Shown here: one piece after another, positions 1 to 16,586 of the stretch
Layout: each line of letters opens with the position of its first letter
How positions within the stretch are numbered: position 1 is the first letter of the stretch
NCBI GenBank assembly: GCA_947462335.1
Contig: OX381714.1
Location: 22,788,618-22,852,617 of the forward strand
Source of the DNA: Harmothoe impar
Lineage: Eukaryota; Annelida; Polychaeta; Phyllodocida; Polynoidae
Reading direction: 5' to 3'
DNA length: 64,000 nucleotides
The notes under the pieces: model-generated
Seen by the model: only the letters and a program-made list of their open reading frames with translations
The model's database searches: none
Told to the model about the DNA's origin: nothing
Made by a program: the position numbers and the translations under genes

Positions 1-348
1 GAGACACACCTGCTGCAATACAAGAGAGTTTGTTTGGACTTAGCATGCAGGACAACAGACGACCACACAAGCAATTAAAGCGGCCATACCTCGAGGTGCC
101 TGGACGTGTGCTTACCTCCTGTATTAAAAAAAGCTTACCCTCCGTCTTTCCTCAATGTGGCACAACCATTAGAATGAATATGGACACATGAAGTTTGCTA
201 TCATTCTATATATCGGGGCTCTAGCCCCAAACTCCCTTTTCTGTTTTAGCTATCATTTCTTTCTTATTTTGAAACTGATAACACAACTATTGTCGAACCC
301 ATCCACCGTTATGCACCTCCATCAGTGAACTAACTGATGGATAATTAC

Positions 349-424
349 CTGACGTAGAGGCACTGGGGGACCATGTTACCACATGCAGTGTCAGGACAAA
401 CCAGATAACCAATTCTGAAGACAT
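349..424 (-). CDS. Signal-peptide exon of a C-type lectin/PAN family gene (copy 0)
   Basis: The exon begins with ATG at 424-422 and encodes a short hydrophobic leader (MSSELVIWFVLTLHVV...) ending in STSG. A donor-like CAG|GTAATT follows at 349/348. The same leader (IWFV.TL.V..W...STSG) followed by CAG|GTAACT occurs at 53439-53364, just upstream of lectin copy 2, and the exon phase (one base left over) matches. The remaining exons of this copy should lie left of base 1. Seen: leader and donor. Inferred: family membership, from similarity to the copy 2 leader. I saw no lectin exon in 1-348. Confidence 0.6.
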
Positions 425-883
425 TCTGCACAATCTGAAAACACATAAACAATTATCCCGAACAATAATCAATAATCTGATGGTGGAATTTATCATAACT
501 CTACAGAAACTATTGCGCCTTTATTATTTCCTCAAAGGTATTTTGCTTCTAATTCAAGTAATAAATTATTTGTTCTGGTATTAATCTAATTTTCGAAGAT
601 TCGACATTTAACTGCAGTTTAGTAGAACGTCTTAGCCAAATTACATTTATTTCAAATGGAAGAATCATGACTGGACCTAAAGTTGAAATACTTCTATAGA
701 GATCTAGGTGAAGAATATTGGTCCACATACACTTTGAGGGTAGCATAATATATTTTAATGCCCTATGTTCTTGTTTGTTACCATGATGTTTAAATGTGAC
801 CTTGATGAAGAACTCTACAGGGATCCATATATACATATATTATAACACTATGGGGTTGATGCAGCACTGGGGAGCTACTCCTC

Positions 884-1021
884 CCCAGCTAACAAAAAAA
901 ACGTTATTTTACGTCAAAATAACGTGCTAAATCTGTACATAACGTTATGCCATAGTGAGGAGCCTTAGAGAAACGTTAAATAACGTTACAAAATGTTGTA
1001 TAACGTTTTTTGTTTACTGGG
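884..1021. mobile_element. Short AACGTT-rich MITE, copy A
   Basis: This 138-bp unit has inverted ends: CCCAGCTAACAAAAAA on the left, and the complement of TTTTTTGTTTACTGGG on the right. The interior contains several AACGTT palindromes. A second copy lies at 48827-48970 and a half copy at 48347-48384. It has no coding capacity. No clear target-site duplication is visible for this copy. Confidence 0.65.
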
Positions 1022-1560
1022 TCGGCACTGAATTTGTGCATCATGACAACAAATTAACATGCCCTTACTAGCTCGCACAAGGAGAATCTAAAATAACACA
1101 TACCTTTCAGTCCCAGCTTAGACTACGCTCGGTTCTTTCTGGCTTGGGTATATGTATTACAGCAATAGTTGTAGTGCCAATACGGGGTGGCAATCAATGG
1201 GGGTAAACAAAAATGGTCATATTGGTCATATTACTGAGCAGAGCTGCGCTTGAGTGTAGGCCTACTTGAATGACAATGCATGCATTCTACCTGTAAGCGG
1301 ACCTGTAAGGCAGTAACTCAAATAATACTATTAGGAATAAGACAAAATATAACCAAATGAGCAATAAGATTGACACTTATGTATGGTCTTAGTGAGCATG
1401 CTAATTCATGTGTACGAGTGACCTCCAGCCCCACATCATGTATGTATGACCTTTATGACCCTGGAAAATGGAACTTGTAAGAGTGAGACTTGAAAGAACG
1501 AAAACACCTTATAAAAAAAGTAATGGATGTTTTAACCCTTTATATTACCTATTATTTTAA
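1022..1560. other. Non-coding stretch, nothing recognised
   Basis: Moderately AT-rich sequence with no convincing exon, RNA gene or terminal repeat on either strand. Confidence 0.5.
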
Positions 1561-2110
1561 TTTACCCAGTACCCATGACAACTGTGGAACAATATTAAAA
1601 TCATGCATCTCAGTGAGACCTTTACTTTGAGATATCACATGACCATATCATGTTAAGAAAAGACAATTTCCTCAATACAAAATATATTGTGAGCTAAAAT
1701 CATGTTTTGAGTTAAAATGTTGGTTGCTATGGAAATGATGCATCCCCATGAATACCCACTCAAATGACTTTTTGACATTGAGGACAGAGCATATTGTGGC
1801 CATGTTGGTTGTTCTGTCATGCATTCACAGTTATCAGTAAGGATGATGATGTTTCCGCATCAATCATTAGGCATCATTGTTGGTGTTTCTGGTTGCCATG
1901 GTTACCTAGGACCTGTGACAACTCTAAAACTATGTTAAAATGATGTATCTCAATGAGACCTTTAATTTGAGATATTACATGAGTGTAGGTGTTGAGAAAT
2001 GACAAACTTCATAACACAATATATATTTTGTATTAGAATTGGCATGCTGGTTGCTATGGAAACACACTATCACCATGGATACCTACTCAAATGACTTTTT
2101 GACTCTTTCA
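1560..2110. repeat. Diverged tandem repeat, unit about 340 bp
   Basis: Two related blocks, roughly 1567-1775 and 1907-2102, share the order 'CATGACAACT / ATGCATCTCAGTGAGACCTT / TTGAGATATCACATGA / GGTTGCTATGGAAA / ACTCAAATGACTTTTTGAC' with many substitutions. No ORF is present. It is probably part of an old repeat family. From 2110 to 2357 I see only unassigned sequence. Confidence 0.6.
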
Positions 2111-2357
2111 ATCAATCAGGCATGCCCAAAAACCCCAATTTAGAGGTATTACACATGCAAATCTCATAAGAATTGACTGATTTATGACTTTAAACATTTT
2201 CGTCAGCCATCTTGGACGCCATCTTGAATTTCGGAAAATGCTCAACGATGCCAGCCGGGCATCGTCAAGATTCTGAAAGTATATGACTTCCTGTACCCAA
2301 ATCAGTCATAACCTCTTCGGGGTTTTTTTCTGCAAGGTTTTCAAGCTGGCAACTGGA

Positions 2358-5300
2358 CTATAGAGGACTCGTTGTCACTCTGTCAGAATGCACGCAATGC
2401 TTAAAATATAAGTATCGCACTCCAGTTTTCTTTATTGTGAAAGTGACCATTTTGTTTCGTACCACTTTGAAATTTCTAATAGTAGTAAGGATAGATTATC
2501 GGTTGGAAAGAACATTCAAGAAGTCTTTCGGTTCTTTAAGGTTTTGTTTTTTCTGTATACCTTTTGCACTCCATTTTTTACATTTTCTTTCACCTGTCGA
2601 GTCGATATCGTAGCAAATGTAAGTCTTAGGGTTGAGACTTAGAATCCCGTCACCTTCCCACTCGGATTTCAAAAGCCCCATAGTTCTCAGATCGTGAGCG
2701 TAACGTCTCTCACAACACCCGCCAGGTGGAGGGAGCCATTCTTGCACGCCTTCGGTTTTTATCTTTACGAAAAGGTCTAAGTGATCGTTGCACACTGCTG
2801 TTGGAATCCACTTTCGTTTCTCTCTGAAGTACGTTTCTCTCAGCTCGGGTTTTACCAGGTCATCCAACGTTTCACCGCTGAGAGCCATGTAAAGACTGTC
2901 CGTGTCCATTTGACAAAGAGCATAATCGCGCCGATCGATGAATCTATCCAAAAAGTCGTACGTGAACTCTAACATTTTCAACTTAGCGTACTGGTACACC
3001 ATGAACCCTATTTGAATAGGGAGGTTGTTCTTGACCATTTTTGGTTGCAGTTCGACTTCAAAGAGATCCGTGGTCAACTTGGCCCCCTTTTTGAAGCGCC
3101 ACGAATTGGTCAATAAATTGAAATTTCGACCGTTAGTGTATTTCACATTGGTGTGTCTTTCTTTGTTGCAAATTGTTTTACCGTATGTAGCATTTCCCAT
3201 TAACTTGTAACAGTCTGACAGAATTTTCTCGTTCGGGTTCACGTCGCCACGTCTTCGCGCTGTGGTTACTTTGTCTGCGAAACCGGCGAAGGGTCGTCTA
3301 GGAAGGTATTCTACGAACATCTGTACTTGGGTGACTATCTAACCGTGATCCAAATACCACTTAAGAAGCGGTGTTCCCAAGAGAACATTTTTTCCGTGAT
3401 AACTCCCTATCAGACTTCTCTGAGGTGTGTTCAACAACTTTTCTTCCTTGGCAAAGTCTGACATGTGAGTTCCTATGTCGGATCTCGAAACGTTTACGTT
3501 CTTGAAAACGGGGGTCATCTCTTCGAAGTATTCTCGTAGGTGTGGATCTTGCCGTTTCATCTGTCTCCATTCACACTCCCACACGACGATCAGCTTGTAA
3601 CCTAGTGCTTTCAAGTAAGCGCTTACTCTAGCCGTTCTGTCGCGTCTCTCATCCCTGAGTGAAGCGCACGGATATCGCTGCAGTGGTATGCACTCGTGAG
3701 CGTGGAACCAACACCCGTGAAACTGGAAAACTGTATTAGAGGTCGGGTGAAAGCCGTCGACGCGAATTCTTCGACAACCTAGAACCATCTCACCGCCGTT
3801 CAAAGCGTGGCGTAGTTTGACGTCGAGAGTGTGCTCTACGAAGCGTAGCCACTCCAAAGCGCTGTGAGAGTGTTTTTGTCTAATTTCAGCTCTGAACTCT
3901 GACGTCTCACCACGTAATTACCCGTGCAGTGCGCTTCGCTCATGCAGCGCAAGTACAGCAAGTTAGCGTCTACTCCTAGGATGTGCTCCCACGTTCTCGC
4001 TTCTTCGCCGTACTTATGCTCCCTTATTCGTGTGGTACCCTTCTCGTGAAATCTATGGAAGATAATCGAAGGACCGCCGACTGGATTTTCTTTGATCAGA
4101 GAGTGGAGGTGAGCGTCAAACTGGGGAAACGTTACGAACATTGCCTCTGTGTTTTGGAACAAGAACCGTAAAGTCAAACCAGGAAGGGAGAACATGTCAA
4201 TTCCGCGATCTCTGAAAAATTTAGCGTGATTGTTCAGAGCCTCTATGAAAGGTTTCACGTCTTTGTTGCTGTAGTAGATCAAGTAATCTCTCACAGTTTG
4301 CATGTTCTGTTCGGACCAAACTTTTCCACATTTGGCGTAGTCGGATTCGGTCATCTTGCTTCCGGTCAGTTTGCTGTCAAAAGCCGATCTCGGTGGTAGT
4401 GTTCTGTTTTCCAGTTTCCTGGTAGACGTCATCCATTCGTAAGGAAAGTGACCTTTCTCTTGATTTCTGGTGGAAGCAAGCAAATAATTCGCGTAATTGT
4501 AACCAGGTGCCAAATAGTTTACTACGTCCAAGAAAACCGTGTGCTGTGTGTAAACTGCCAAGTATTGGTTACTTCTCTTTACGCTGAATTCTTCTTTATT
4601 TCGGTCTTTAGAGGAGAAGAATGCGTGAAGCTGTATTTTGATCAAGTTCAAGTCGTAGCGCCCCGAGTTGAAACCTACGACCGGAACTTGACGGAGATAT
4701 CTCAAAAGCCTCTGCTTCAGTTGAACCAACGGATGTCTGTGTCGAGTTGCAGTGAAGTCGCCTGTACCCGGAGAAAGTCTGAACACCGCTTCCTCTAGCA
4801 GGAGAGCTTCACTTATCGCTGCATCTAACTTCGCTAGCATCGGTCGGTAAACTTCTAGCATCCTCGCTCCGATGACTTTGGCGGTGTCGTTTATGTGATT
4901 TAAAACTCTATCCAACAAAGGGTCGGAATCTGCGTCGGATTCTCTCACGAAGCATACCGGACCCTCCTACCCAGGAAAGTCGGATGCGACGCTAGCCGAC
5001 AAAGGGACGTGATCCCACAGCACGGACACATGTTCGGTGGACGGTTCTTTGGACGCTCTGGAGAGAGCCTCGGAATCGAAGGTGATCTTGTAAGGGTACA
5101 TTCGCGAATTACCGTCGGGGGGAAAATGGAGAAATCTGCTAGCGCTTGGAAAATCGTTTTCGAATTGTGGTAGATTCCACCCACATATCTCAACTTGACT
5201 TGTCGACAAGGGGAAAGCTGATTCCTGTGTCTTTTCAGTAAGAACTCAGTGGTGAACGCCGCCTTACACTTGCAACACTTGTAGATACCTGCGTATGCGT

Positions 5301-6304
5301 TGAAATCGGTAACCAGAGACACGTGCAAACCTTCTTTCGTCGTCAGGTGTAGGTTGATTTTACCTCGGACGGCCTGAGTTTTCGAAGGTGGTCTGATCAG
5401 ACTAACTTGTCTTTTCAACTTCTGTCCCCTCACTGCACGCACGGTGTAAAGCGCTATTTGTTTATCAAACAAGTTCTCTAACGTAGGTAAGTTGCGGATG
5501 TTCAAACCCGGAAAGGTTTCAGGATCGGCAGTGGGATCGAACTGACGTAACAATTCCGAAGCGTGTTTGCCAGTCTTGTATAAGTGAAAGTAAATGCAGC
5601 GAAAGACGCACAGTTTGTCTGCGTTGGGAAAATCTAACACACCGCTTCTTTTTCCAACTCGACCCGCGTGGGTAACCCTGCCACCTATGGGAAATTCCCC
5701 CGGTCCCATGTAAATGCAAATGTTCAAATTGGTGGGGAAAAGAACGTGCCACTTGGTGTCAGAGTCGCAAAGTTTCTGTAATTCTTCGCAAGCGATGGTG
5801 TTTTGCATGAGGGAGAGGAGCTCTTCTAAACTTTCTGAATTAGTTATGGTGGGAAGTGGTTGTATAAGAGTTGCGTTGTTTTGGGAGGCGTGAAAGTAGC
5901 GTCGTTTGCTTTTGTCTTCTTTGTGTTGTAATATTAAACCTAGCGACAAACCTACTTTGTATCTGAATCTTTGTGTTAAGTGAATGTGTCGCATAGTATC
6001 TACAGCGTCACTCAACTCACCGGTTGGTAGTCTTAAGTTTGTCACACTCACACGAGTCCCGTGCACCTGTTTGTATTGCAGACCAATTCACAGTGAATAT
6101 TTCTTCACCGTTCGGTATAGCGCATATCATGGGAGGGATAGTTACTCCGTTGAGAGATTCGCGTCGACAGGTGATTTTTCAACAACTACCTTCGCCGCAT
6201 AAAGGACAAAACCTCGATATTACTTTACATTGTTCCATGTGTCTGTCATGATTGTACGACCGTTTAAAACTTTTGAAACACTTTTCGCAGATGTACTGCG
6301 ACAT
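2358..6304 (-). pseudogene. DNA polymerase B, protein-primed Polinton/adintovirus type, broken
   Basis: Read right to left, the pieces give a family B DNA polymerase of the type found in Polinton/Maverick elements, adintoviruses and bidnaviruses. The start (ATG 6304) encodes a C2H2 finger (CEKCFKSFKRSYNHDRHMEQC) and a CPLCG motif. A second zinc finger (CCKCKAAF...HRNQLSPC) lies near 5280-5210. Exonuclease-like motifs follow (ITFDSEA near 5080; GFNSGRYDLNLI near 4660), then FHGCWFHAHEC and VVWECEW near 3715-3590, KLMGNATYGKT near 3200 and the palm motif MDTDSLY near 2900. Breaks: frameshifts near 6180-6090, 5100 and 3860, and in-frame stops at about 4967, 3339 and 2496. Past the last stop, homologous-looking sequence continues to a stop at 2358. 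Such enzymes copy linear genomes from a terminal protein. This copy cannot make a full protein. The assignment is strong; the exact viral or transposon lineage is inferred. Confidence 0.85.
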
Positions 6305-6376
6305 GTTTTCACTGAGATATCGATATATTATGTGAAGCGAAATTATTCTTATTATTTTTTTCATCTACTTAACCAA

Positions 6377-6378
<2 letters not shown>

Positions 6379-6415
<37 letters not shown>
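6379..6415. repeat. (TCTG)n/(TCTA)n microsatellite
   Basis: A tandem TCTG run passes into TCTA between the polymerase remnant and the acidic gene. It is non-coding. Confidence 0.9.
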
Positions 6416-6416
<1 letters not shown>

Positions 6417-6481
6417 TATTCTTTTTGTCTACGCCGCATCCGTCAAACACTTTCTCACGTGTGTGTGCATGTGCATACCTC

Positions 6482-7882
6482 TCATTCCAGAACTCTGCCG
6501 AGAAATTTGAGAATGATCTCTCTTTTGTCATCAAACTCTTTGAGCACCTTGTTGGACACCGTCACACCCTCCAGTGTGGGGTTTTTGTCGACGCCTTAAT
6601 ACTTGCGGACGTGGATCACGTTCTTACCCTTGTAGTAGCTGACCGCGGTGTACACTTCCCTTTCTGCGTCCAACAACATAAACCAAGCTTCGTGAAAGGG
6701 GAGGCCCTGCGTAGCCCCTGCGTCGCGTATCCGTGCCACCTGGTGGGTGTTCGCGATGTTCGCTATCAGCTTGAGCAGTCCGTCGATGGTGAAGCGCACT
6801 TGTTTAGTGGGGGTTGGAGATGAGTGTTTGATGCTGTAGCGCTCCTTGGACAGTCTAACCTGATCCAACCAGATCTCAAGCTTCAAACCGTCGAGGAAGA
6901 ACTCTAACATGCCGGCCTTCGTGTCATCTTTCTCTGCTTCTTCTCTTTTTCTCTTCTTGGAGGTCAGGTCGTGACTCTTCTTAGAAGGTTTCAAGACAAG
7001 AAGAGTATCACCATCAGGGTGAGCTGAATCAGGAGCAGAGCCAACAACAGGAGCAATGTCCGTGCCTATAGCGGTGAAGGTGGGGTCATAAGTCGTCGAG
7101 GAGGAGCGAGCATGAAAAAACACCTGAACGTCCTCACCGCCCTCAGCGCCCTCTGTCTCCACCGTCACTACCTCCTCTTCCTCCTCCTCGTCCTCTGTCT
7201 CCTCCTCCTCCTCGTCCTCTGTCTCCTCCTCCTCCTCCTCCTCCTCCTCCTCCTCCTCCTCCTCCTCCTCCTCCTCCTCCGCCTCCGCCTCCTTCTCTCC
7301 CTCTTCCACCTCCTCCGCTCCTACTACTACGTGGTGCATGCGCTGAGTGTTGAAATCGATGTAAGTGTATTCACCAGCGTCGGTCGAGGATGATGGAGCG
7401 GCCCCTTCTTCAATGTGCGCCGGTTGCTGACGGTCTTCATCGAAATCAGTGGGGAGGTAAAAACCTGGTTGCCAGTAAGGACGACAGTCACTTGTGAGAG
7501 GCGACCCGATGTTGGTAGTAGTAGCAGCAGCAGTAGCAGCAGCAGTAGCCGGAGCAGTTGGGGTCTCTGTAGTAGTAAGTGTATCACTAGGTACATCAAC
7601 ACCAACAGGAGCACCAACAGTAGCAGCAACACCAACAGCAGCAGCAGTAGGGTCGTTAGCAGTAGTAGTCAGGTGTAGCAGTGTAGGTGCCACAGTAGGT
7701 GTAGCCGTGGGAACCGACAGGTGTGCAGAGGGGGTCCTTGTTGTTGTCGATGTTGTAGTCGCAGCAGTAGCACACGTAGCAGTAGCATGTGTAGGAGGTG
7801 GAGTTGGTGTAGTAGGTTTAGTAACACTACTACCGCTAGTACCACCGCTAGTACTCACTACACTGCGAAGGTTATAAGTCAT
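6482..7882 (-). pseudogene. Poly-Glu protein with PC4-like C-terminal domain
   Basis: ATG 7882 opens 428 codons. The first ~150 residues are Thr/Ala/Pro-rich. A long Glu tract (encoded by (CCT)n at about 7163-7300) and a basic KKRKR nuclear-signal-like motif follow, then an ordered C-terminus. The last part (SYYKGKNVIHVRKY) resembles the beta-strand segment of the PC4/SUB1 single-stranded-DNA-binding fold. An in-frame TAA at 6596-6598 interrupts it, and the same frame continues 37 more codons to TGA at 6482, with a PTLEGVTVS...LKEF segment that fits the rest of a PC4-like domain. Upstream of the ATG the frame stays open and basic to about 7990, where ATA sits in a start-like context, so the original start may be lost. 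It is oriented like the polymerase. A DNA-binding role in viral replication or transcription is inferred. The PC4 assignment is from motif resemblance only. Confidence 0.55.
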
Positions 7883-7989
7883 TGAGGTTGTGGTGATACT
7901 ACCATCTTCAGTAGCAAGGGAAGCCGCTAAACGCCCTCTCTTCGTCGTCTTCTTGTGTAGGTGTAGCTTAGTTGGTCTTCTGCTTATGA

Positions 7990-8596
7990 TGGTGTGTGTA
8001 GAGAAAAGAGTAGGTGAGTGAATGGTGGTTTTTCACCTTCCTTATATACCACCGCTTCTGGATACCTGCTGGTTTTGCTAAGCCTATTATCACAGTAGGT
8101 TGTCTATTAATCCGTTTTTCACCTGTCCTCTGCTGTTACATCATAAAAGGAGCGTGTGGACTTCAAAGAAAATAGTCGATAGGGTGTCTATAAATCCGAT
8201 TTTCACCTGCCCTCTGCTGTTACATCATGAAAGGGGGGTGGTCCTCATAAGCTCTTAATGAGGGGATTAAAAGTCTCATGTGGATAAGACAGGTATACAG
8301 ATGGAAACGGGTTTAGTATAAAAAATCCCATTTTCAGCTGCCCTCCACAGATGGAGATGAAAAGGAAAGCCGAATACCACCTGTCCGCCTCATAAGCTCT
8401 TAATGAGGGGATGAAAAGTCTCATGTGGATAAGTCGGGTATGCAGATGGAAATGGGATTAAAATCCTCTGTATAAAAGCTCTGATTTTTCAGTTGTAAAA
8501 CCCATATCACATCTGACCACTACACCTACCACATCTACCAACGCCACTACCTCGAGCGTTACCACCAAACACTAGCACCGCTAGCAACTACACCTC
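7990..8596. promoter_or_regulatory. Bidirectional promoter region with two direct-repeat families
   Basis: This spacer separates the divergent acidic (-) and Death-domain (+) genes. A TATA-like TTATATA at 8042-8048 serves the minus direction, and TATAAAA at 8471-8477 lies about 125 bases before the + gene. Two repeat families occur. One is a ~50-bp unit at 8101-8150 and 8185-8234 (AATCCG.TTTTCACCTG...CTGCTGTTACATCAT). The other is a ~46-bp unit at 8243-8288 and 8388-8433 (CCTCATAAGCTCTTAATGAG...TCTCATGTGGATAAG), which contains a near-palindrome. The arrangement suggests paired upstream control elements. No ORF is present. Confidence 0.55.
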
Positions 8597-9014
8597 ATGC
8601 AAGATGGCGAGAGCTCACCCTTGCCTTCCTCGGTATCGGTCGACCGGATCTGTTGCTAAAGACGCTACACTTTTTCACCAAGCGTGAGTTGGATTACAAC
8701 AATCCCGACTTGCCTACAATGGAGGGGTACTTTAGCATCATGGCCGAATCGTTAGGTAGTGAGTGGAAACACTTGGGGCAGTATTTACCTTTGGCAACTG
8801 ACGAGTTAGATAGGATCGCTCAACAATCCAAAGAAAAAACCTCACTCGCCCGATCTTCGAAGTGTTGAAAATATGGCGAGCTGATCATCGCAGTACACAT
8901 TTTCAACTCATTCGAGTGTTGTTGGAGCACATGGACAGGTCTGACGTCGTCATCCATATATTACTTCACTTTCAACACCAAGGAAGGCGCTCAGGCTCTC
9001 GCTATGACATTTAA
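8597..9014 (+). pseudogene. Death-domain protein, frameshifted
   Basis: One frame (open through 8599-8868) encodes AESLGSEWKHLGQYLPL and then DELDRIAQQSKEKT. This matches the first helices of a Death domain: LG..W..LA..L.L...ELD.IE. The frame then fails at about 8847. The following frame, 8850 to TAA 9014, supplies FEVLKIWRADHRS and LIRVLLEHMDRSDVV, matching helices 4-6 (..L..W.......T...L...L....R.D). The only ATGs near the start (8597, 8604) are in other frames, so a second 5' lesion or an unseen exon is likely. Death domains mediate homotypic contacts in apoptosis and NF-kB signalling. In a viral gene this would suggest interference with host signalling, which is inference. A downstream neighbour encodes a BIR domain. 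Confidence 0.65.
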
Positions 9015-9019
9015 GGTAG

Positions 9020-9345
9020 TAGTTGCATATAACATCGAGCGCACCCTTTTCTAATACACTTGTGAAAGAAAAAAAATAGAAGTTGCGCGCTGGTGTAGAA
9101 TTAAATATTAAGTCGCTACACAGGAGCGTGTGTCTGCAGTGGCGTCGTTTTCGTCGTCGTCTTCGTTGTCGTCGTCGTCATCGTCGTCTTCAGAGGGTGT
9201 GAGTGTGCAGTCAGCCGGCGGGAAAAAAAAAAGCACTGAGCTACCTGTCTACCTGCCTACCTATCTACCTACCTGGCTACGTGTCTGTCTACCTACCCGA
9301 CCAACTAACTGACTGTCTGACTGACTGACTGACTGACTGACTATC
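9020..9345 (+). repeat. Simple-sequence stretches between the Death and BIR genes
   Basis: GTC/TCG runs (about 9147-9190), CTAC-rich tandem repeats (about 9240-9300) and a GACT run (about 9309-9342) fill the spacer. A 60-codon Ser-rich frame here is a by-product of the triplet repeat. Confidence 0.75.
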
Positions 9346-9779
9346 CCCCACCGTACTACCATCATGGGCGACCACCCTGCACTGGCCAAGTACACGGCTT
9401 TCGAGAGTTTAGGGAGGCGACTGAACACTTTGGAACACTTTGGTATAGACCACGCTCTTTCGCAGAGACTCTCGCCGCTCACGGGTTCTTTTACATAGGT
9501 GGTAAGGATGTTGTTCAATGCTTTCAATGTGGAGTCACTATACACACGTGGTTAGACAGCGATGACGTCGCTGTGGAACATTTCAGACATTCTCCTACTT
9601 GTCAGTTGGCTTGTAAAGCAATGAATATAACGCCACAAACCAGAATTTTACTGACGGCAATGTTGAAGACAATAAATCTACTGACCGATGATATAGCTCT
9701 CAGAAGGGAGATGAGAGGGTTGTCAGTGGAAAACGCTAGGTGTTTCTTCCGTTTGGACGACGAGGACATCTTAGGATAA
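9333..9779 (+). pseudogene. BIR-domain (IAP-like) protein, 5' part out of frame
   Basis: The frame open from 9333 to the stop at 9779 contains a near-complete BIR zinc-binding core: RSFAETLAAHGFFYIGGKD, then CFQCG, W, DD, and EHFRHSPTC. That supplies the C-x2-C...H...C ligands and the typical G...C..C....W...D.P/V..EH.RH..C spacing. The best start codon (ATG 9364, context ACCATCATGG) is one frame away. That frame carries the natural-looking upstream BIR helix until about 9435, where a 10-bp direct duplication (AACACTTTGG twice) sits. A frameshift or sequencing/assembly indel is therefore likely. About 65 residues follow the BIR with no RING finger. BIR proteins bind caspases or other apoptosis factors, and viral ones are known. 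Here a single BIR without RING follows a Death-domain gene on the same strand. Confidence 0.72.
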
Positions 9780-9824
9780 GTCGTCGTAGGTGATTCACCA
9801 CAGAGTCGACACACATTAGTCAAA

Positions 9825-9975
9825 TGATTCAAAAAAAAAAAAAAAAAATTTAAAAAAAAGAAAATTGTTGTGTTTTTATTTTCATACGAAATCTAAACAG
9901 AAAAAAAAAATTAAGTGACTCGCCTCCGAAGAGGAGGCGAGTCTCTTGATTAAGTAAAATTCTTTTTTTTTTTTC
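9825..9975. terminator. A/T-tract-flanked perfect hairpin at a gene end
   Basis: GACTCGCCTCC (9917-9927) pairs perfectly with GGAGGCGAGTC (9933-9943) around a GAAGA loop. Long A runs precede it (9831-9848, 9901-9910) and a T run follows (9963-9974). It lies 140 bases after the BIR stop. It could be an RNA 3'-end structure or a processing signal. The function is inferred. Confidence 0.5.
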
Positions 9976-10016
9976 TTCCCCCTTCACTACTAGCACCCTA
10001 AGAGACGCTCACTCCC

Positions 10017-10132
10017 AAAGTGCCCCCTCCCCCCCAAAGTGCCCCCCTCCCCCCCCAAAGTGCCCCCCATACTCCCGCAGAGTGCCCCCCTCCCCCCTAT
10101 GCACCCCCGCCCCCTATGCACCCCCCCCTTCT
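10017..10132. repeat. C-tract tandem repeat, potential G-quadruplex on the minus strand
   Basis: Repeated AAAGTGCCCCC / CTATGCACCCCC units carry at least ten runs of four or more C. The minus strand could form G-quadruplexes. It is non-coding. Confidence 0.8.
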
Positions 10133-10149
10133 CTTCTTCCTCCCCTCAG

Positions 10150-10330
10150 TTAATTAACTACTAAAGAAATCCTCCTCTGACATGTCTGATGTGTACATTC
10201 AGACTCCGATACATATTATACTACTCATGGTGAGGGTTGTAGAGAAAGTGTGAGTGAATGACATTCTTCTTCTTTCCCCACCCCTTATACACACCTCTGG
10301 AGATTTATAAGCTGCTTAAGAGAGAGTGAG
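10150..10330 (-). promoter_or_regulatory. Orphan promoter-like segment, minus direction
   Basis: GTAGAGAAAGTGTGAGTGAATG (about 10229-10250) followed by CACCCCTTATACACACC resembles the segment before the acidic gene at 7999-8050 (GTAGAGAAAAGAGTAGGTGAGTGAATGG ... CCTTATATACC). Here no minus-strand ORF follows to the left. It may be the relic of a promoter whose gene was deleted, or replaced by the C-tract repeat. Confidence 0.35.
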
Positions 10331-10559
10331 CTAGCTAGCTAGCGAATCCTGTTTCCAGCTGGAGGGTCCTTCCTACCTTCCCTCCTTCCACCCCTGGATT
10401 CAAATCTTGTTTTTGATCTGGAGGTGTGTTACATCTATAAGAGGATCAAGTGTCGTCATTAGGAGATTAAGGTGGTGTTCAACGAGGACGTATACAAAAA
10501 ACTTCATACAGCAAACAGCAGGTGGTGATCATCCTGCAGACATTCTTCATGTTAACTAG

Positions 10560-10970
10560 GTGGGCACTTCCAGTCACGTGACCACATTTTTATTGTTTTT
10601 ATTATTTTATTTTTTTTAAATTGGGTCACTTCTGTCACTTCCGGTCATTCCTAATCCCTCCCCTAAGTAGGTCACGTGACGTCACTTCCGGTCATCTTAA
10701 GTAGGTCACTTCCGGTCACGGGGGTGTGGTCTATTATGCAAATGAGGGGGTCACTTCCGGTCAAATGGAGGCCTCTGATTGGCTGGTACATCGGAAGTGA
10801 CCCATTATGCAAATGAGGAAGTCACTTCCGGTCAAATGGAGGCCTCTGATTGGCTGGGGTCATGACCTTGACCTCTAAGTAGGTCAAGGTCACGTGACGT
10901 CACTTCCGGTATGCCCTTATATGTGACGTCACTTCCGGTCAAATGGAGGCTTCTGATTGGCTCCAAGTCC
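10560..10970. promoter_or_regulatory. Dense cluster of ETS, CRE, CCAAT, octamer and E-box motifs
   Basis: ACTTCCGG (ETS core, reverse of CCGGAAGT) occurs at 10637, 10684, 10708, 10753, 10824, 10902 and 10931, with CGGAAGTGA at 10792. TGACGTCA (CRE) is at 10678, 10895 and 10924. GATTGGCT (inverted CCAAT) is at 10777, 10848 and 10955. ATGCAAAT (octamer) is at 10736 and 10807. CACGTGAC (E-box) is at 10575, 10673 and about 10891. TGACCTTGA and TCAAGGTCA half-sites lie at 10862-10891. Several motifs recur in a fixed order (octamer - ETS - AAATGGAGGC - CCAAT), forming a ~70-bp tandem module. The motifs are seen directly. Enhancer or promoter activity is inferred. Confidence 0.6.
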
Positions 10971-11026
10971 AATGAGTAATAAACAGTACTTAACCATAGT
11001 CCCGTTCCGATACAAACTATACTACT

Positions 11027-13176
11027 TATATATATATATATGGGTGGGGGTCCAGAAAATGTCCATTTCACAAATTGAGTTATTTTTTAAAAATAATCAT
11101 TTTAAATGAAGAGAATGTATTGGGATAACTACATAATTGCAAAAAGCCCAATGAGTACTAATAGAAAAAATATGCGTATTAATTATAATTTCATGATTTT
11201 TTCAGATTTTAGCTACTTTTCAGGGAAAAAATGACCAAAAATCGATGTCCCCTGGAAAAAATCTGATTTTAACGGAAATTTTCTTCAAATGATATTAGAT
11301 TTACACTTTTTGCTTCATATGTGTTGCATACAAATGATACTTCTTCATAACACCATTTATTTCAATATTTAATTTTTATTTTTTTTAAATATTTGTTTAA
11401 ACTACAAAAATAGCAATTATTCTCATAATCTCATATATCTTTTTAAACACTTGATTTTTTTGGAAAAATATTACACTAGATGGATGTTTTGTGCCATTAG
11501 GCATATCGCGGACACCTATACTCTTGGGCAGAATGATAAAAATTAAGACAATTGATCATTTTCTTGGTGAAATTAGAGCCCAAAGAAGGAATTAAAAATG
11601 ACCTGTTTAAGCCAAATTTCTTGAAAAGGTAATTAATTATACAAATCCTGCATAAATTACATATTACCTGCATTGGATAAGCGTATGTGTGAGCTCTACA
11701 CTCCCATATCGATCGATTTTTTCTATTTTACATTTAACAAGCAAAAACAATTGTTTTCACTGGATGTTACGTTCACTAGATTGCTGTTACGTTCACTAGA
11801 TTTATTTAAACATTTTGAATAATATCAGTCTAAATGTCCTCTAAGGAGGAAGGGAAATATCCATGTGGTGCCTACATAGTACATGCACCATATGCAATAA
11901 GAATCGTAACTCGGTGCAACGTCTTTGTCTTTGTAAATTAAGATATCAATTTATGTTACGTTCACTAGAATTATGTTACGTTCACTAGAATTATGTTACG
12001 TTCACTAGAATTATGTTACGTTCACTAGAATTATTTTTGGTTCCACGGAGACAGTAAATTGTCATGAAAATATGTCCTTTTTTGTTGATTTCTTTTGATA
12101 GGCCGCATGTATGTCTGTTTGACAAACCTATCAGCAAGGATGTATGTGGATGAATGCATGATTTATGTAATATTAAGAACTATCAAAACAACATGTCCTG
12201 TATTTTATGTAATGTTACGTTCACCAGATATATGAAAAAGTCAGAAATATGCATAAATAATTAAAATATAGCCGTAACACAAATTGTCCAAGTATATCTG
12301 AGCATTACAAATGACACTGACCTGTTTCCATCATTTTATCATAAACATATTTCATTCTAGAAACTATTCAATTTTTGTGTTACGTTCACTAGATGTTACG
12401 TTCACCAGATATATTGAAAACAACCGAATTTTGGTCTAATTGTCTTATTTTTCTTATATTAAATATCTGGGACATGCTGTGCCTTTTTTTGCATAGGTAT
12501 TATACCACAACCAACTGAAAAAAATGCTATTATTGACTAATATTTCATTATAATTCCTCTATTTTTCTACTATGTTACGTTCACTAGATCCCACTGAACA
12601 CCTCTGAATAGTAAAATAAACACAATAGAATGGCAGAAAATACAAAATATCTTCAGATATGTTAGAGCACTTTGTATACTTTCATCTGGGTTTCACAGCT
12701 AGTTTAATACTCTTACATGTTAGTACTTTTCCCTATTTAAAAAGATTATAGGTTCGATTTAGACAGAAACCAACTGGCCCTCAATTGACTCTAGCTATAA
12801 AACTATCACAATGAGGAATTAAAAATAGAGAAAAAGTGTACAGCACCCTGTTACATGGTAGGAAATGACACATTTTTGCCCTAATTCAGTGAATCAAGTT
12901 CATAACTAAAAAATGTCATCATATTTTTTCACTATTCTCTTGTTTATGATAATATCTGGTGAACGTAACACAATTTTGTTTCATTAGTAAATGTATTTTT
13001 CAAACTTACATAGAAAAAAAAGTAAGAATCCTAGTATCACAAAATTTGGGAATGTGATGGTTCATTGCCTCCTTTATATATAGACAAATCTGCTACAACA
13101 TTTGGGCAATTCAGAAATATTATTGTTTTTCACTGGAAATGGACATTTTCTGGACCCCCACCCATATATATATACA
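11027..13176. mobile_element. Non-coding 2.1-kb DNA transposon with ~27-30-bp terminal inverted repeats
   Basis: The left end (11040 on) reads ATGGGTGGGGGTCCAGAAAA and continues through TGTCCATTTC. Its exact complement ends at 13165 (GAAATGGACATTTTC...CCCACCCAT, allowing one mismatch). Both ends abut TATA runs, consistent with insertion in (TA)n and a TA target duplication. The interior is very AT-rich with no ORF of note, so it is non-autonomous. It contains the 16-bp motif array described separately. Superfamily is not assignable from the TIR alone. Confidence 0.75.
11765..12970. repeat. Eleven copies of TGTTACGTTCACYAGA inside the TIR element
   Basis: Plus-strand copies start at 11765, 11785, 11954, 11974, 11994, 12014, 12213, 12378, 12394 and 12573. 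One minus-strand copy is at 12955-12970 (TCTGGTGAACGTAACA). Four are in a 20-bp tandem; the others are scattered in AT-rich sequence with little flanking similarity. The variable position is T or C. Conservation of the motif against a decayed background suggests a protein-binding site, for example for a transposase. Confidence 0.85.
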
Positions 13177-13661: not shown

Positions 13662-14597
13662 TCATGAGTAGTCCAACAAACGCGAAGCCACCAGGGCATC
13701 CTTAGAGCGCCTTGCTTTATAATTGTTGGATATATAAAGGAGAACAGCAAGGGATTTCCAGTTGCCATATTGCAGGAATGAAGATAGATAAGTAGCAGAT
13801 CCAAGGTATAGGCTGTGCGTGTTAAAGTCCCCAGATAAGCGTGCAGACGCACAACACGACTTCAGTCTAGCAGAGAAGGCCTTGTAACTGTACATAAACA
13901 GATAGTCCTCCGCCTCAAATTTTGAGAATGAGACATATTTCTTGAGTGATCTTACAGGACAGAGAGGGGAAGCAGTTGCAGCTACTACCGGTATCCTTTG
14001 CACCCTGTCGCCATACTGTATAGTCTTGGAGCTTCTCACATTCACATCCATACCACCTTTCCAAAAAGACAGGTCCTTTACTTTCAAAGTATGAGGAGAA
14101 AATGACACATGGCTGGCTCGAAGTAGGCATCTATAACATATCAGCACAGCGCACCAGAAAGTGAAGTCCGCCCATACATTTATATCCAAAGTGCCATATA
14201 TACACAATAAGTCAGCAGGCAGCAATGGGTCCTCTTGCTTGGTTGCGGATCCCTGTAGTCTCTTAGCACCATTAAGGGTACTTTTTATCAGGAAACTGTC
14301 AATATCCACATGGTCTTGACCCCATAGACTCGAGACATAGTTCTTGATTGACACAAAACACAGCGTTTTCATGAGATAGGTAATATACAAACAGACCATT
14401 GTTATGGACGCTGGTATAGGGGTAAATGAATAAGTCCTACAGAATCTATAATATTTGTTCCATCTTGTAGCATATGACTTTTCAGTGTTTTCAGCCCAAC
14501 ACTCCTCCCGCACCACCATCCAATAGTCCAACAAGGCCACCAGCTCTACAACAACAATTAGCAAAGCCAGGGATGGCATTAATACACACTTCCACAC
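13662..14597 (-). pseudogene. Tyrosine recombinase of Ngaro-like element 1, active-site mutant
   Basis: About 300 residues are homologous to the recombinase at 18129-19148 (shared RWNKYYRFC / RWKSYFKFC-like core, PIPAS, TKQ, GxWKSL). The first catalytic Arg is kept (CYRCLLRASHV) and so is the candidate nucleophile Tyr (WKSLAVLLYIS). The HxxR motif reads HSLYLGSA where the intact relative has HSMRRGGA, so the second catalytic Arg is lost. YR enzymes integrate circular cDNA. This copy is predicted inactive. Confidence 0.75.
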
Positions 14598-16586
14598 AAT
14601 CAGGATTATTCAATCTAGACAAACAATCTGGTATCAAATTATCAACACCCGGGATCCATGCCGCCTTCAATTCAATATTCATAAAGCAACATGCCCAAAA
14701 TAACTCTCTAGCCCACTTCATAGCAGTACTATTACTACTTCTACCAGATTGTAGAACCGCCAGGACCTGGGTATTGTCAGTTATTACATTCACAATACAG
14801 TTTCTCAATTCTGAACCCCAACGTTTCAGGCCTATAAGAACCGGCCACAATTCCTGTTCGTGATATGGTCATCAAAAACCTCAGTCGGGGGTTTTTCCTC
14901 ATGGGGGCAGGTGTCACCTGTGCCATCCCAGGTACCCCACATATACCCCAATTCACAAGTGCCACCAAAACCAACCTTTGAAGCATCAGTACCCATGTTG
15001 CATACAGGCCCTTTATGATTTAATATCCTAGCTTTGCCATTACACCAAGACATAAAGGTTTTCCATCAAACAAGATCTGCTCTAACAAGGTCATCAAGTA
15101 CAATTACATCTCCATTGGCAGTATCTCTCAAAAGGTTATAAATCCTTCTGGTATAAGTCCTACCAGCGCGGACTACCGTGGCACAATGGCCTAAAAGGCC
15201 TGCCAACTTCTCTAACCTCTTAAGTTTGCAAAGTCATGCTTTCAGTATTAACAATTATACCTAGATACTTCACACACCTGGAAGGGAGAACCTGCTTTTT
15301 TGCTGACACATTAAAGCCCAAATTATGAAGTGCACTACACAAGTTGTTCGGAGCTGTTATACAACCCTCTTCCGAGCTATGAGTGACAAAGTAGTTGTCT
15401 AGGTAATTTATACACTTGGGAAAACCACCTTTTTCACCTATTTTCACCACAAAGTCAGACACCATAGTGAAGATGTAACAAGCAGATTTAAGGCCAAAAC
15501 AGAGCCTCAGATCTTAATACCACTCTTCCCCTCTACCCATATTCCATACAAAAACTTGGAAATCTCTGTGTGACGGAATGACAGCGATAGAGCGATAGGC
15601 ATTCCTGATATCAGACACTCCACAGTATGCATTTTCCTCCAGTAACTCCACAACATTGTCTATGGATTCATAACGAAATTTTTTACAACACTCGTTCATA
15701 TAATTATTGATGCTGAGACTTTCTGGACGTGAACAATCAGTTATGGGGCGGAGAGAACCATCGCCCTTTTCTATACCACCCATAGCATGGATACAGCGGG
15801 GTTTTACCTTCACAGTCCCGACTTTATCCTCCTTTAATTTGGCCTTTATTTTTGCACTCATTTCACCTGAAAACTTTTTCCCCATCAGGGAGTCGTAATT
15901 TTGACAAAAATAGCACGCATCACAACCGTGGTCTACTATCCTGAATCCCTTGTATATGCCTGTCAAAACATACATGTCGTTTAAAGTAACATTTTCACCA
16001 AAACTCAAAATCTTTGCACCAAAACAACAAGGTTTCATCTGCGTCTCAACCCCCTCCAGGGTGTAAACACAACCGCAGGTGCCTGCCACACATCCCCTCC
16101 ATACGGGAACCCAGCTACCCGGTACAGCCTCAACAGCAGCCACCGGACGGACAACACTGTAAGAAACACAACAATTATTTAGAACCGAGATATCAGTGGA
16201 AAAACTCACATATTCTCCCACATTGAGTCGTGTATGCATGACAAATCTACATGGGCACTGCCATTTTGACCTACATTAACAGTCCGCGGCGCGATTTCTA
16301 AACGCTTACATTTTGACTCCCATTGCTCACAGTGACCCATTTTGCCCATATCGGACAATTTTAAAATTATATTGACATTGTCACCATTATTTGACAAATT
16401 ATCTGCGTTACTCCAACCATTGTATAAAGCTTCCGGATAATTTTCATCAATAACATAGTCTGCGGAATGTTCATGTACACAGGAGTCTCGCCGACTGGCC
16501 GCTTGAGCTACTACTTCAGTTTTAGCGTTAGAAATATCACAGTTTGTAGCTCTAGAAGTGTTGTTAACACCCACCTTTCTGCTCAA
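14491..16586 (-). pseudogene. Reverse transcriptase/RNase H of Ngaro-like element 1, decayed
   Basis: The RT N-terminus lies at 16239-15514 (KPRCIHAMGGIEKGDGSLRP, ITDCSRPESLSINNYM, GVSDIRNAYR). An in-frame TAA at 15514 interrupts it, and the frame continues to the palm motif, which reads NYLDNYF instead of YLDD (near 15390). Further breaks precede an RNase H part (NMGTDASKVGFGG near 15000; VITDNTQVLAVLQSGRS near 14780; ELFWACC, CLSRL). The upstream piece 16586-16206 matches the polyprotein N-terminal region in position only. The order RT-RH-YR fits DIRS/Ngaro-type elements. No complete frame survives. The gag end is absent here; a gag fragment with a matching A repeat lies at 30.7-32.1 kb. 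Confidence 0.78.

Follow-up and report, generated by a model that had tools for sequence, protein, structure and literature searches.

The window analysed here is a stretch of 64,000 nucleotides from the 1.51-Gb genome of the polynoid annelid Harmothoe impar (C12:22788618-22852617, contig OX381714.1 of assembly GCA_947462335.1). It contains, at 2358-11026, an old, left-truncated copy of a virus-type element with a DNA polymerase (PolB), an acidic poly-Glu protein, a Death-domain gene and a BIR gene. The block is probably a decayed copy of segment A, one of the two segments (A and B) between which the genome of a polinton/adintovirus-type element would be divided. Segment A would carry PolB, a PC4-type protein resembling single-stranded (ss) DNA-binding proteins and a Death-domain protein, with BIR added in an old subfamily. 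Segment B, of about 10.5 kb, would carry an integrase with a chromodomain, a packaging ATPase, a protease and a capsid protein. This reading draws on the gene content, shared ends, target duplications and numbers of terminal sequences observed in the genomic copies, and on the predicted fold of the capsid protein.

The whole block is collinear with young copies of the element in blastn comparisons. Position 2358 aligns with L011:9792, which is 644 bp inside that young element, and position 11026 aligns with the right tip. The right boundary is thus located at about 11026 and not at 10970, as first proposed from the letters of the window (the original prediction), and about 640 bp have gone from the left end, including the left terminal inverted repeat. 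Self-comparison found no inverted match to the right end in window 1-2357. The right terminal inverted repeat covers 9837-11026, with its tip at 11002-11026 and a second tip-like copy internally at 10201-10225 (tips located by pattern, up to five substitutions). The sequence from 9837/9940 to 11000/11026 is found again at the PolB-side end of L006-L008. Neither Pfam (nine frames) nor comparison of the segment B proteins with the window found an integrase, capsid or ATPase in the block. The original prediction had described a virus-type insertion in which these three genes were not visible and which might be only part of a genome. All of this is borne out; the capsid, ATPase and integrase sit on a separate element class with the same ends.

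A single PolB is split into five frames on the minus strand. The N-terminal piece (6179-6364) shows a weak C2H2 finger (zf-C2H2, E = 0.012) and is collinear with the start of the young PolB. The next piece (4945-6087) contains an OTU-like motif, C2H2 and the start of the exonuclease, recognised from invariant columns, and the third (3836-4966) runs from the exonuclease to polymerase motif A; the OTU, exonuclease and motif A labels were assigned by eye. The ratio of non-synonymous to synonymous substitution rates (dN/dS) of the third piece is 0.27-0.29 against four young copies. A profile of relatives identifies the piece at 3339-3917 as the counterpart of their Vsr-like endonuclease part; the window piece itself has no Vsr match in Pfam. 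The C-terminal piece (2496-3338) holds the palm motifs and is the one PolB piece in the window with a Pfam match to DNA_pol_B_2, a weak one (E = 0.014). Two of the window pieces resemble young PolB frames at 77-84%. In the profile of 29 PolB relatives, residues 871-952 match Vsr (1vsr/1odg, E = 1.2e-6) and the C2H2 fingers are matched more weakly (E = 0.005); by Pfam (E up to 0.01), C2H2 is found in 17, Vsr in 11 and DNA_pol_B_2 in 8 of the 29. P0001, a 98% homologue of the young PolB, matches DNA_pol_B_2 with E = 3.7e-7. The OTU-like motif lies between the fingers, and our reading of it was guided by PMC11071308, the available text of which reports terminal-protein and OTU domains in polinton PolB. 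The polymerase appears from its sequence to be of the protein-primed, polinton-like type. Among the best 120 of 574 PolB relatives, the named hosts are lancelets, gastropods, echinoderms and a sea anemone (39-46% identity); scans of IMG/VR confirmed no relative of PolB or of the capsid.

The acidic poly-Glu protein is encoded on the minus strand at 6596-8032, in a frame open across 478 residues. It is the homologue of a young protein with a PC4-like C-terminus. The window copy has no Pfam match to PC4, and the young homologue (L012) matches PF02229 with E = 1e-4 and 22.2 bits, below the Pfam cut-off of 25 bits. The Death-domain gene (8485-9014, plus strand) is spread over two frames, 8485-8868 and 8814-9014, which together make up one domain. 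Both match PF00531 under the Pfam cut-off (E = 5e-4 and 2.8e-3), and the young homologues exceed it (E = 1.5e-7 and 2.4e-6). Other copies carry two tandem Death domains, as two stretches in L021 and two tblastn places in L023. When compared with PDB, the first young stretch matches FADD (E = 0.2) and the second RIPK1 (E = 0.013), weakly and behind designed toroids and calcineurin. An AlphaFold model of the tandem-Death protein has a mean predicted local distance difference test score (pLDDT) of 50, and Foldseek found no counterpart for it with an E of 0.001 or lower; the Death assignment therefore rests on Pfam. The BIR gene, of the inhibitor of apoptosis (IAP) type, is located at 9333-9779 on the plus strand and matches PF00653 with E = 2e-15; its best PDB match is NAIP (BIR-containing protein 1e, E = 1.7e-21). 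The window frame is open for 148 residues; elsewhere, many copies match in two separate parts (residues 1-38 and 33-148) that lie in different frames. The PolB, Death, BIR and poly-Glu genes of the original prediction are therefore present, and its PC4-like end is found only in the young homologue; Pfam gave a strong match for BIR, weak ones in the window for Death and DNA_pol_B_2, and none for PC4. Its statement that all the genes are broken describes PolB and Death correctly, is at odds with the open BIR frame and may not hold for the poly-Glu protein.

A genome search with the C-terminal piece of PolB gave 138 scored rows, the best of 4,676 candidates, which fall into two subfamilies. The old subfamily comprises 13 rows that are 90-100% identical to the window, several with stops. 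The remaining 125 rows form a young subfamily at 83-84%, and 54 of these have stop-free frames of at least 1,300 residues, as counted from the search table. For the linkage test, 55 close BIR rows of 152 matches were entered. BIR is located 3-13 kb from 11 of the 13 old-subfamily PolB copies, on the opposite strand, and was linked to none of the 125 young copies; it is thus seen only with the old subfamily. A Death gene was found in all four of the young copies that were read. Seven old loci were fetched: three have both Death and BIR, one has Death in a stretch that ends short, and the others have the right end only, PolB only and nothing. As BIR is consistently linked to the old-subfamily PolB, the Death and BIR genes are parts of the element. 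The original prediction had named the lack of any other linked locus as the outcome that would refute it, and the fixed orientation and recurrence of BIR within 13 kb of PolB show the opposite. Domains of the BIR and Death types occur widely in animal genomes, and the two genes could be exons of the host, or unrelated repeats, located next to a PolB remnant by chance. We regard this as highly improbable, given the BIR and Death counts above, the position of both genes within the element ends as open frames, and the occurrence of Death-protein relatives (P0121-P0124, 52-99%) in other records; a host-exon origin was rejected on the linkage to PolB copies. The dN/dS is 0.27-0.29 for PolB between subfamilies (eight comparisons), 0.04-0.63 for BIR, 0.18-0.58 for the first Death piece among old copies and 0.28-0.48 for the second piece in two loci.

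The four young copies of segment A that were read measure 9.2-9.5 kb by their tips, and their interiors are 97-99% alike. They carry the PolB, PC4-type and Death-domain genes, and none of the four has a match to the segment B proteins, integrase and capsid included (E up to 1e-4). Three have clean ends with 6-bp target duplications (CCCGTA, AATATT and AATAGT); the fourth (C6) is flanked by TA repeats. When the left arm is compared with the right over about 430 bp, two copies show 98.6 and 97.6% identity and the remaining two 87%. The copies in L011/L012 and L020/L021 are more than 97% alike, yet each has unequal inverted repeats (about 87%), so the arms are not always equalised.

One copy of class B was read (L040, L041). 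It is 10.5 kb long and has a 6-bp duplication, GTTATT. Its rve integrase (E = 3e-13) has a C-terminal chromodomain (E = 0.002 on L041, below the Pfam cut-off), the ATPase matches Adeno_IVa2 (E = 1.6e-5), and an adenovirus-type protease matches Peptidase_C5 just under the cut-off (E = 3.8e-4). A further protein of 438 residues has 35 database relatives, some annotated as F54H12.2-like, mostly from turtles. The AlphaFold model of P0125, a 95% homologue of this protein, has a pLDDT of 84.8, and its best Foldseek matches are the major capsid proteins of Sputnik, PBCV-1 and mavirus (E = 3e-17 to 4e-16); the model also matches capsid models in a viral structure library. The 438-residue protein is thus predicted by its fold to be a double jelly-roll major capsid protein. 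Segment A proteins, PolB included, match nothing in the class B copy read (E up to 1e-4). The genome search with the integrase gave 108 scored rows, the best of 7,859 candidates; all 108 are free of stops and 99-100% identical, as top-scoring rows would be by construction. Not one of the 138 scored PolBs has any of these integrase rows closer than 10 kb. The closest pair is 11.7 kb apart, which is compatible with separate neighbouring elements, and on C14 a class B copy ends about 2.6 kb from a class A copy.

The two segments, together with two further classes, C and D, have almost the same ends. For B, C and D a single copy was compared, and for D its left end only. The outer 86 bp or so are nearly identical across the four classes: C has 83-85 of 86 bases in common with A, B or D, A and D agree at 95-97 of 98 positions, and B and D at 97 of 99. 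Between A (C14) and B, three of four arm pairs agree at 116-117 of 128 positions, and the fourth extends as 183/240. Past this outer stretch the similarity between classes fades or stops, and the inverted repeat within each class goes on (371/432 in A, 418/440 in B, 449/450 in C). The old right end in the window is a variant of the same terminal sequence (80/87 to B). Inside the ends, A and B have in common only short repeat-like or low-complexity stretches. Such a pattern fits a common replication and integration signal placed on different segments rather than a recent internal deletion of one parent.

The exact 23-base tip occurs at 5,895 forward and 5,899 reverse places in the genome; a reversed control gave none. 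The original prediction took the block for an old fossil. This is right for the window copy and does not describe its thousands of same-ended relatives, as many scored copies have open frames. The first 100 tip places (C1 up to 5.0 Mb) were paired into spans. They form 41 adjacent pairs (82 tips), of which 28 measure 8.7-9.9 kb, 11 measure 10.34-10.54 kb and two measure 13.2 and 15.9 kb; none is shorter. If this pairing is extrapolated to the whole genome, some 3% of it would consist of about 4,800 spans, each about 9.7 kb long. Spans were typed by probes covering just 0.4-1.6 kb of each. All 11 spans of 10.34-10.54 kb carry the integrase (ten probed mid-span and one read), and the ten probed have the integrase at 86.5-99.6% together with an adjoining frame of 433 residues. 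Of the shorter spans, 17 of 28 were probed: eight have PolB, one the PC4 gene only, three are class C, four are class D, and one is uncertain, with a class A match over 76 bp only.

The class C copy read has a 6-bp duplication (AACGTC), and three 1.2-kb probes of the class are 99.6-99.75% alike. Class D has tandem repeats, and the copy read is without a matching duplication. The A and B proteins found nothing in the single copy read of either class except a faint trace of Death in C (37%, E = 4e-4), and eight frames of the two classes gave no convincing Pfam match. Class C was seen in L058, L059, L061 and L062-L063, and class D in L054, L056 and L064-L065, with spans of about 9.2-9.8 kb. Both are candidate size-matched satellites that use the same ends.

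Classes A to D could also be non-autonomous elements that arose by internal deletion or capture from a single undivided polinton bearing these ends, with a rare complete master acting in trans. The tips and 6-bp duplications common to the classes would be expected of such derivatives, and C and D resemble passengers. Monopartite polinton-type elements are present in the same genome, relatives of the capsid (45%) and of PolB (49%) are both found on a 12,657-bp database contig, perhaps one undivided relative, and two tips of the old variant lie 20.4 kb apart on C19. Other PolB relatives, at 98, 76 and 69%, come from contigs of 9,882, 4,271 and 9,859 bp; all of these database contigs give hints only. 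However, no element with both PolB and integrase emerged from the scored rows, and neither the four A copies nor the B copy read holds a joint gene set. As the interiors of A and B are dissimilar, descent from one parent would need near-complete replacement of the interior and not simple deletion. Both gene sets are open in many scored copies, and the 41 pairs of young tips include no short derivative, though one pair of old tips lies 239 bases apart (C6:71094910-71095148), as a very short derivative or a rearrangement. The 13.2- and 15.9-kb spans were tried as undivided masters and rejected, since their probes gave class D or nothing. We consider descent from an undivided master unlikely.

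Two blocks in the genome represent the monopartite type. On C7 (79.40-79.42 Mb; L034, L036, L037) and C8 (50.16-50.17 Mb; L035), integrase, ATPase and PolB occur together in adintovirus-like gene blocks with a BIR gene, which is 39% (C7) and 43% (C8) identical to that of the window. On C7, the frame with the C-terminus of PolB also encodes a NADAR domain (E = 2.6e-11). The ATPase, integrase, capsid and protease of the C7 block have homologues in class B at 39, 31, 26 and 33%. With segment A the C7/C8 elements share PolB (27-41%) and BIR, but they have all genes in one block. As they encode an integrase, these elements could supply integrase and capsid to segment A as a replicating satellite, with B an independent relative. 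We hold this to be very unlikely: the ends of A recur on B, no shared tip (up to seven substitutions) is present in the C7/C8 stretches examined, which stop short of the ends of those elements, and class B is itself without a polymerase match.

The tip variant of the old family occurs at 30 and 36 places in the two orientations. One old A copy, on C11, retains both tips and spans 11.1 kb. A second tip-like sequence is located about 0.75-0.8 kb inside the ends of old copies, within the inverted repeat, in the window, L006, L023, L027 and L032.

Several observations weigh against a divided genome. None of six probes found a partner segment for the old family; five had no match at all, and the sixth matched, at 73%, a stretch of low-complexity type found in B and D. 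The divided genome is therefore seen in the young family only. One old-tip pair of 10.8 kb (C1:80465069-80475852) matched no class at a single probe (L082), and the 20.4-kb pair (C19:35578430-35598830) contains no scored PolB row. Nine probes of the 13.2- and 15.9-kb spans gave class D in five cases, towards the ends, and nothing in four. Only top rows were scored (138 of 4,676 for PolB and 108 of 7,859 for the integrase), so that a rare undivided element could escape, and the interdependence of A and B is proposed from genomic copies. The C7/C8 relatives might supply functions from within the same genome. Selection signals are mixed: dN/dS is 0.16-1.01 for PolB among old copies, 0.57-1.02 for Death between the window and young copies, and 1.36-1.37 in three short comparisons of the second Death piece, on 1-1.5 synonymous changes.

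Beyond the right end of the element, the window contains copies of TGTTACGTTCACTAGA, scattered and in tandem, at 11765-12973, with an inverted pair at 12375/12950; the array is perhaps a small unrelated repeat element. Frames on the minus strand at 13662-16275 look by eye like a tyrosine recombinase and a reverse transcriptase and resemble a DIRS-type retroelement.

Polintons are marked by AG...CT ends and a 6-bp duplication. The present elements resemble Polinton/Maverick elements in PolB, the rve integrase, the A32/adenovirus-type ATPase, the adenovirus-type protease, the predicted double jelly-roll capsid, the terminal inverted repeats and the 6-bp duplications; repeats with duplications were found in three of four young A copies, one B copy and one C copy. 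They differ in that the genes are split over classes of about 9.4 and 10.5 kb, and no undivided copy with the same ends was found. The integrase is on class B only, apart from PolB, and so are the capsid, packaging ATPase and protease. According to a table in PMC12567637, the genomes of Eupolintoviridae are linear double-stranded (ds) DNA and measure 15-40 kb. Adintoviridae also have a chromodomain integrase, protease, ATPase and capsid, and in the available text of PMC8363768 they are defined by PolB and hexon together in one virus, those of Drosophila being single contigs of 13.3-14.6 kb. Here the integrase has the C-terminal chromodomain, and the PolB with its OTU-like motif and the hexon are on separate classes, unless the classes make up one divided genome. 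Bidnaviridae and Vesanto-type bidna-like viruses, as described in the available parts of PMC8363768 and PMC11071308, have divided genomes, similar inverted segment ends and a polinton-derived PolB. One bidna-like virus has up to twelve segments with similar ends (PMC8363768, available text), and the segments here are nearly identical over at least the outer 86 bases or so. Bidna-like viruses differ in having ssDNA, capsids of the parvovirus type and candidate segments measuring 3.3-5.8 kb, whereas the present elements have a retrovirus-type integrase and a predicted double jelly-roll capsid; Pfam matches of eight A and ten B frames include no parvovirus-type NS1 or single jelly-roll capsid. 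These segmented viruses are the nearest published parallel that we found. In the literature searched, mostly outside subscription journals and as far as its text was available (including PMC11071296, PMC11071308, PMC8363768, PMC6431247, PMC12567637, PMC6943099 and PMC11521997), no bipartite, segmented or multipartite polinton or adintovirus is described.

We lean towards a multipartite dsDNA virus of the polinton lineage, with A as the replication and anti-death segment, B as the virion and integration segment, C and D as satellites, and one terminal sequence of about 86 bp shared by all. It would have some 5,900 tip-bearing germ-line copies and possibly still be mobile, and the capacity of the capsid would set the segment size of 9-10.5 kb. 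PolB would prime replication from a protein at the ends common to every class, the integrase of segment B would insert all classes and leave 6-bp duplications, and the segment B proteins would package all classes. Such packaging is the proposed reason for most spans measuring 8.7-10.5 kb. A and B would thus depend on and complement each other in trans, and C and D would be satellites exploiting the same ends. The Death and BIR proteins may disturb death-receptor and caspase signalling in the host and thereby keep the infected or expressing cell alive.

Polintons are regarded as central to the evolution of DNA viruses of eukaryotes. They are treated as single undivided elements in the available text of the literature searched. 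A divided polinton, if true, would illustrate how a dsDNA virus can come to have a segmented genome, in parallel to the bidnaviruses, whose PolB came from polintons, and a host that carries thousands of copies would allow the question to be tested. The Death domains on the replication segment, with BIR in the old subfamily, suggest that control of host cell death may be part of the strategy of the element.

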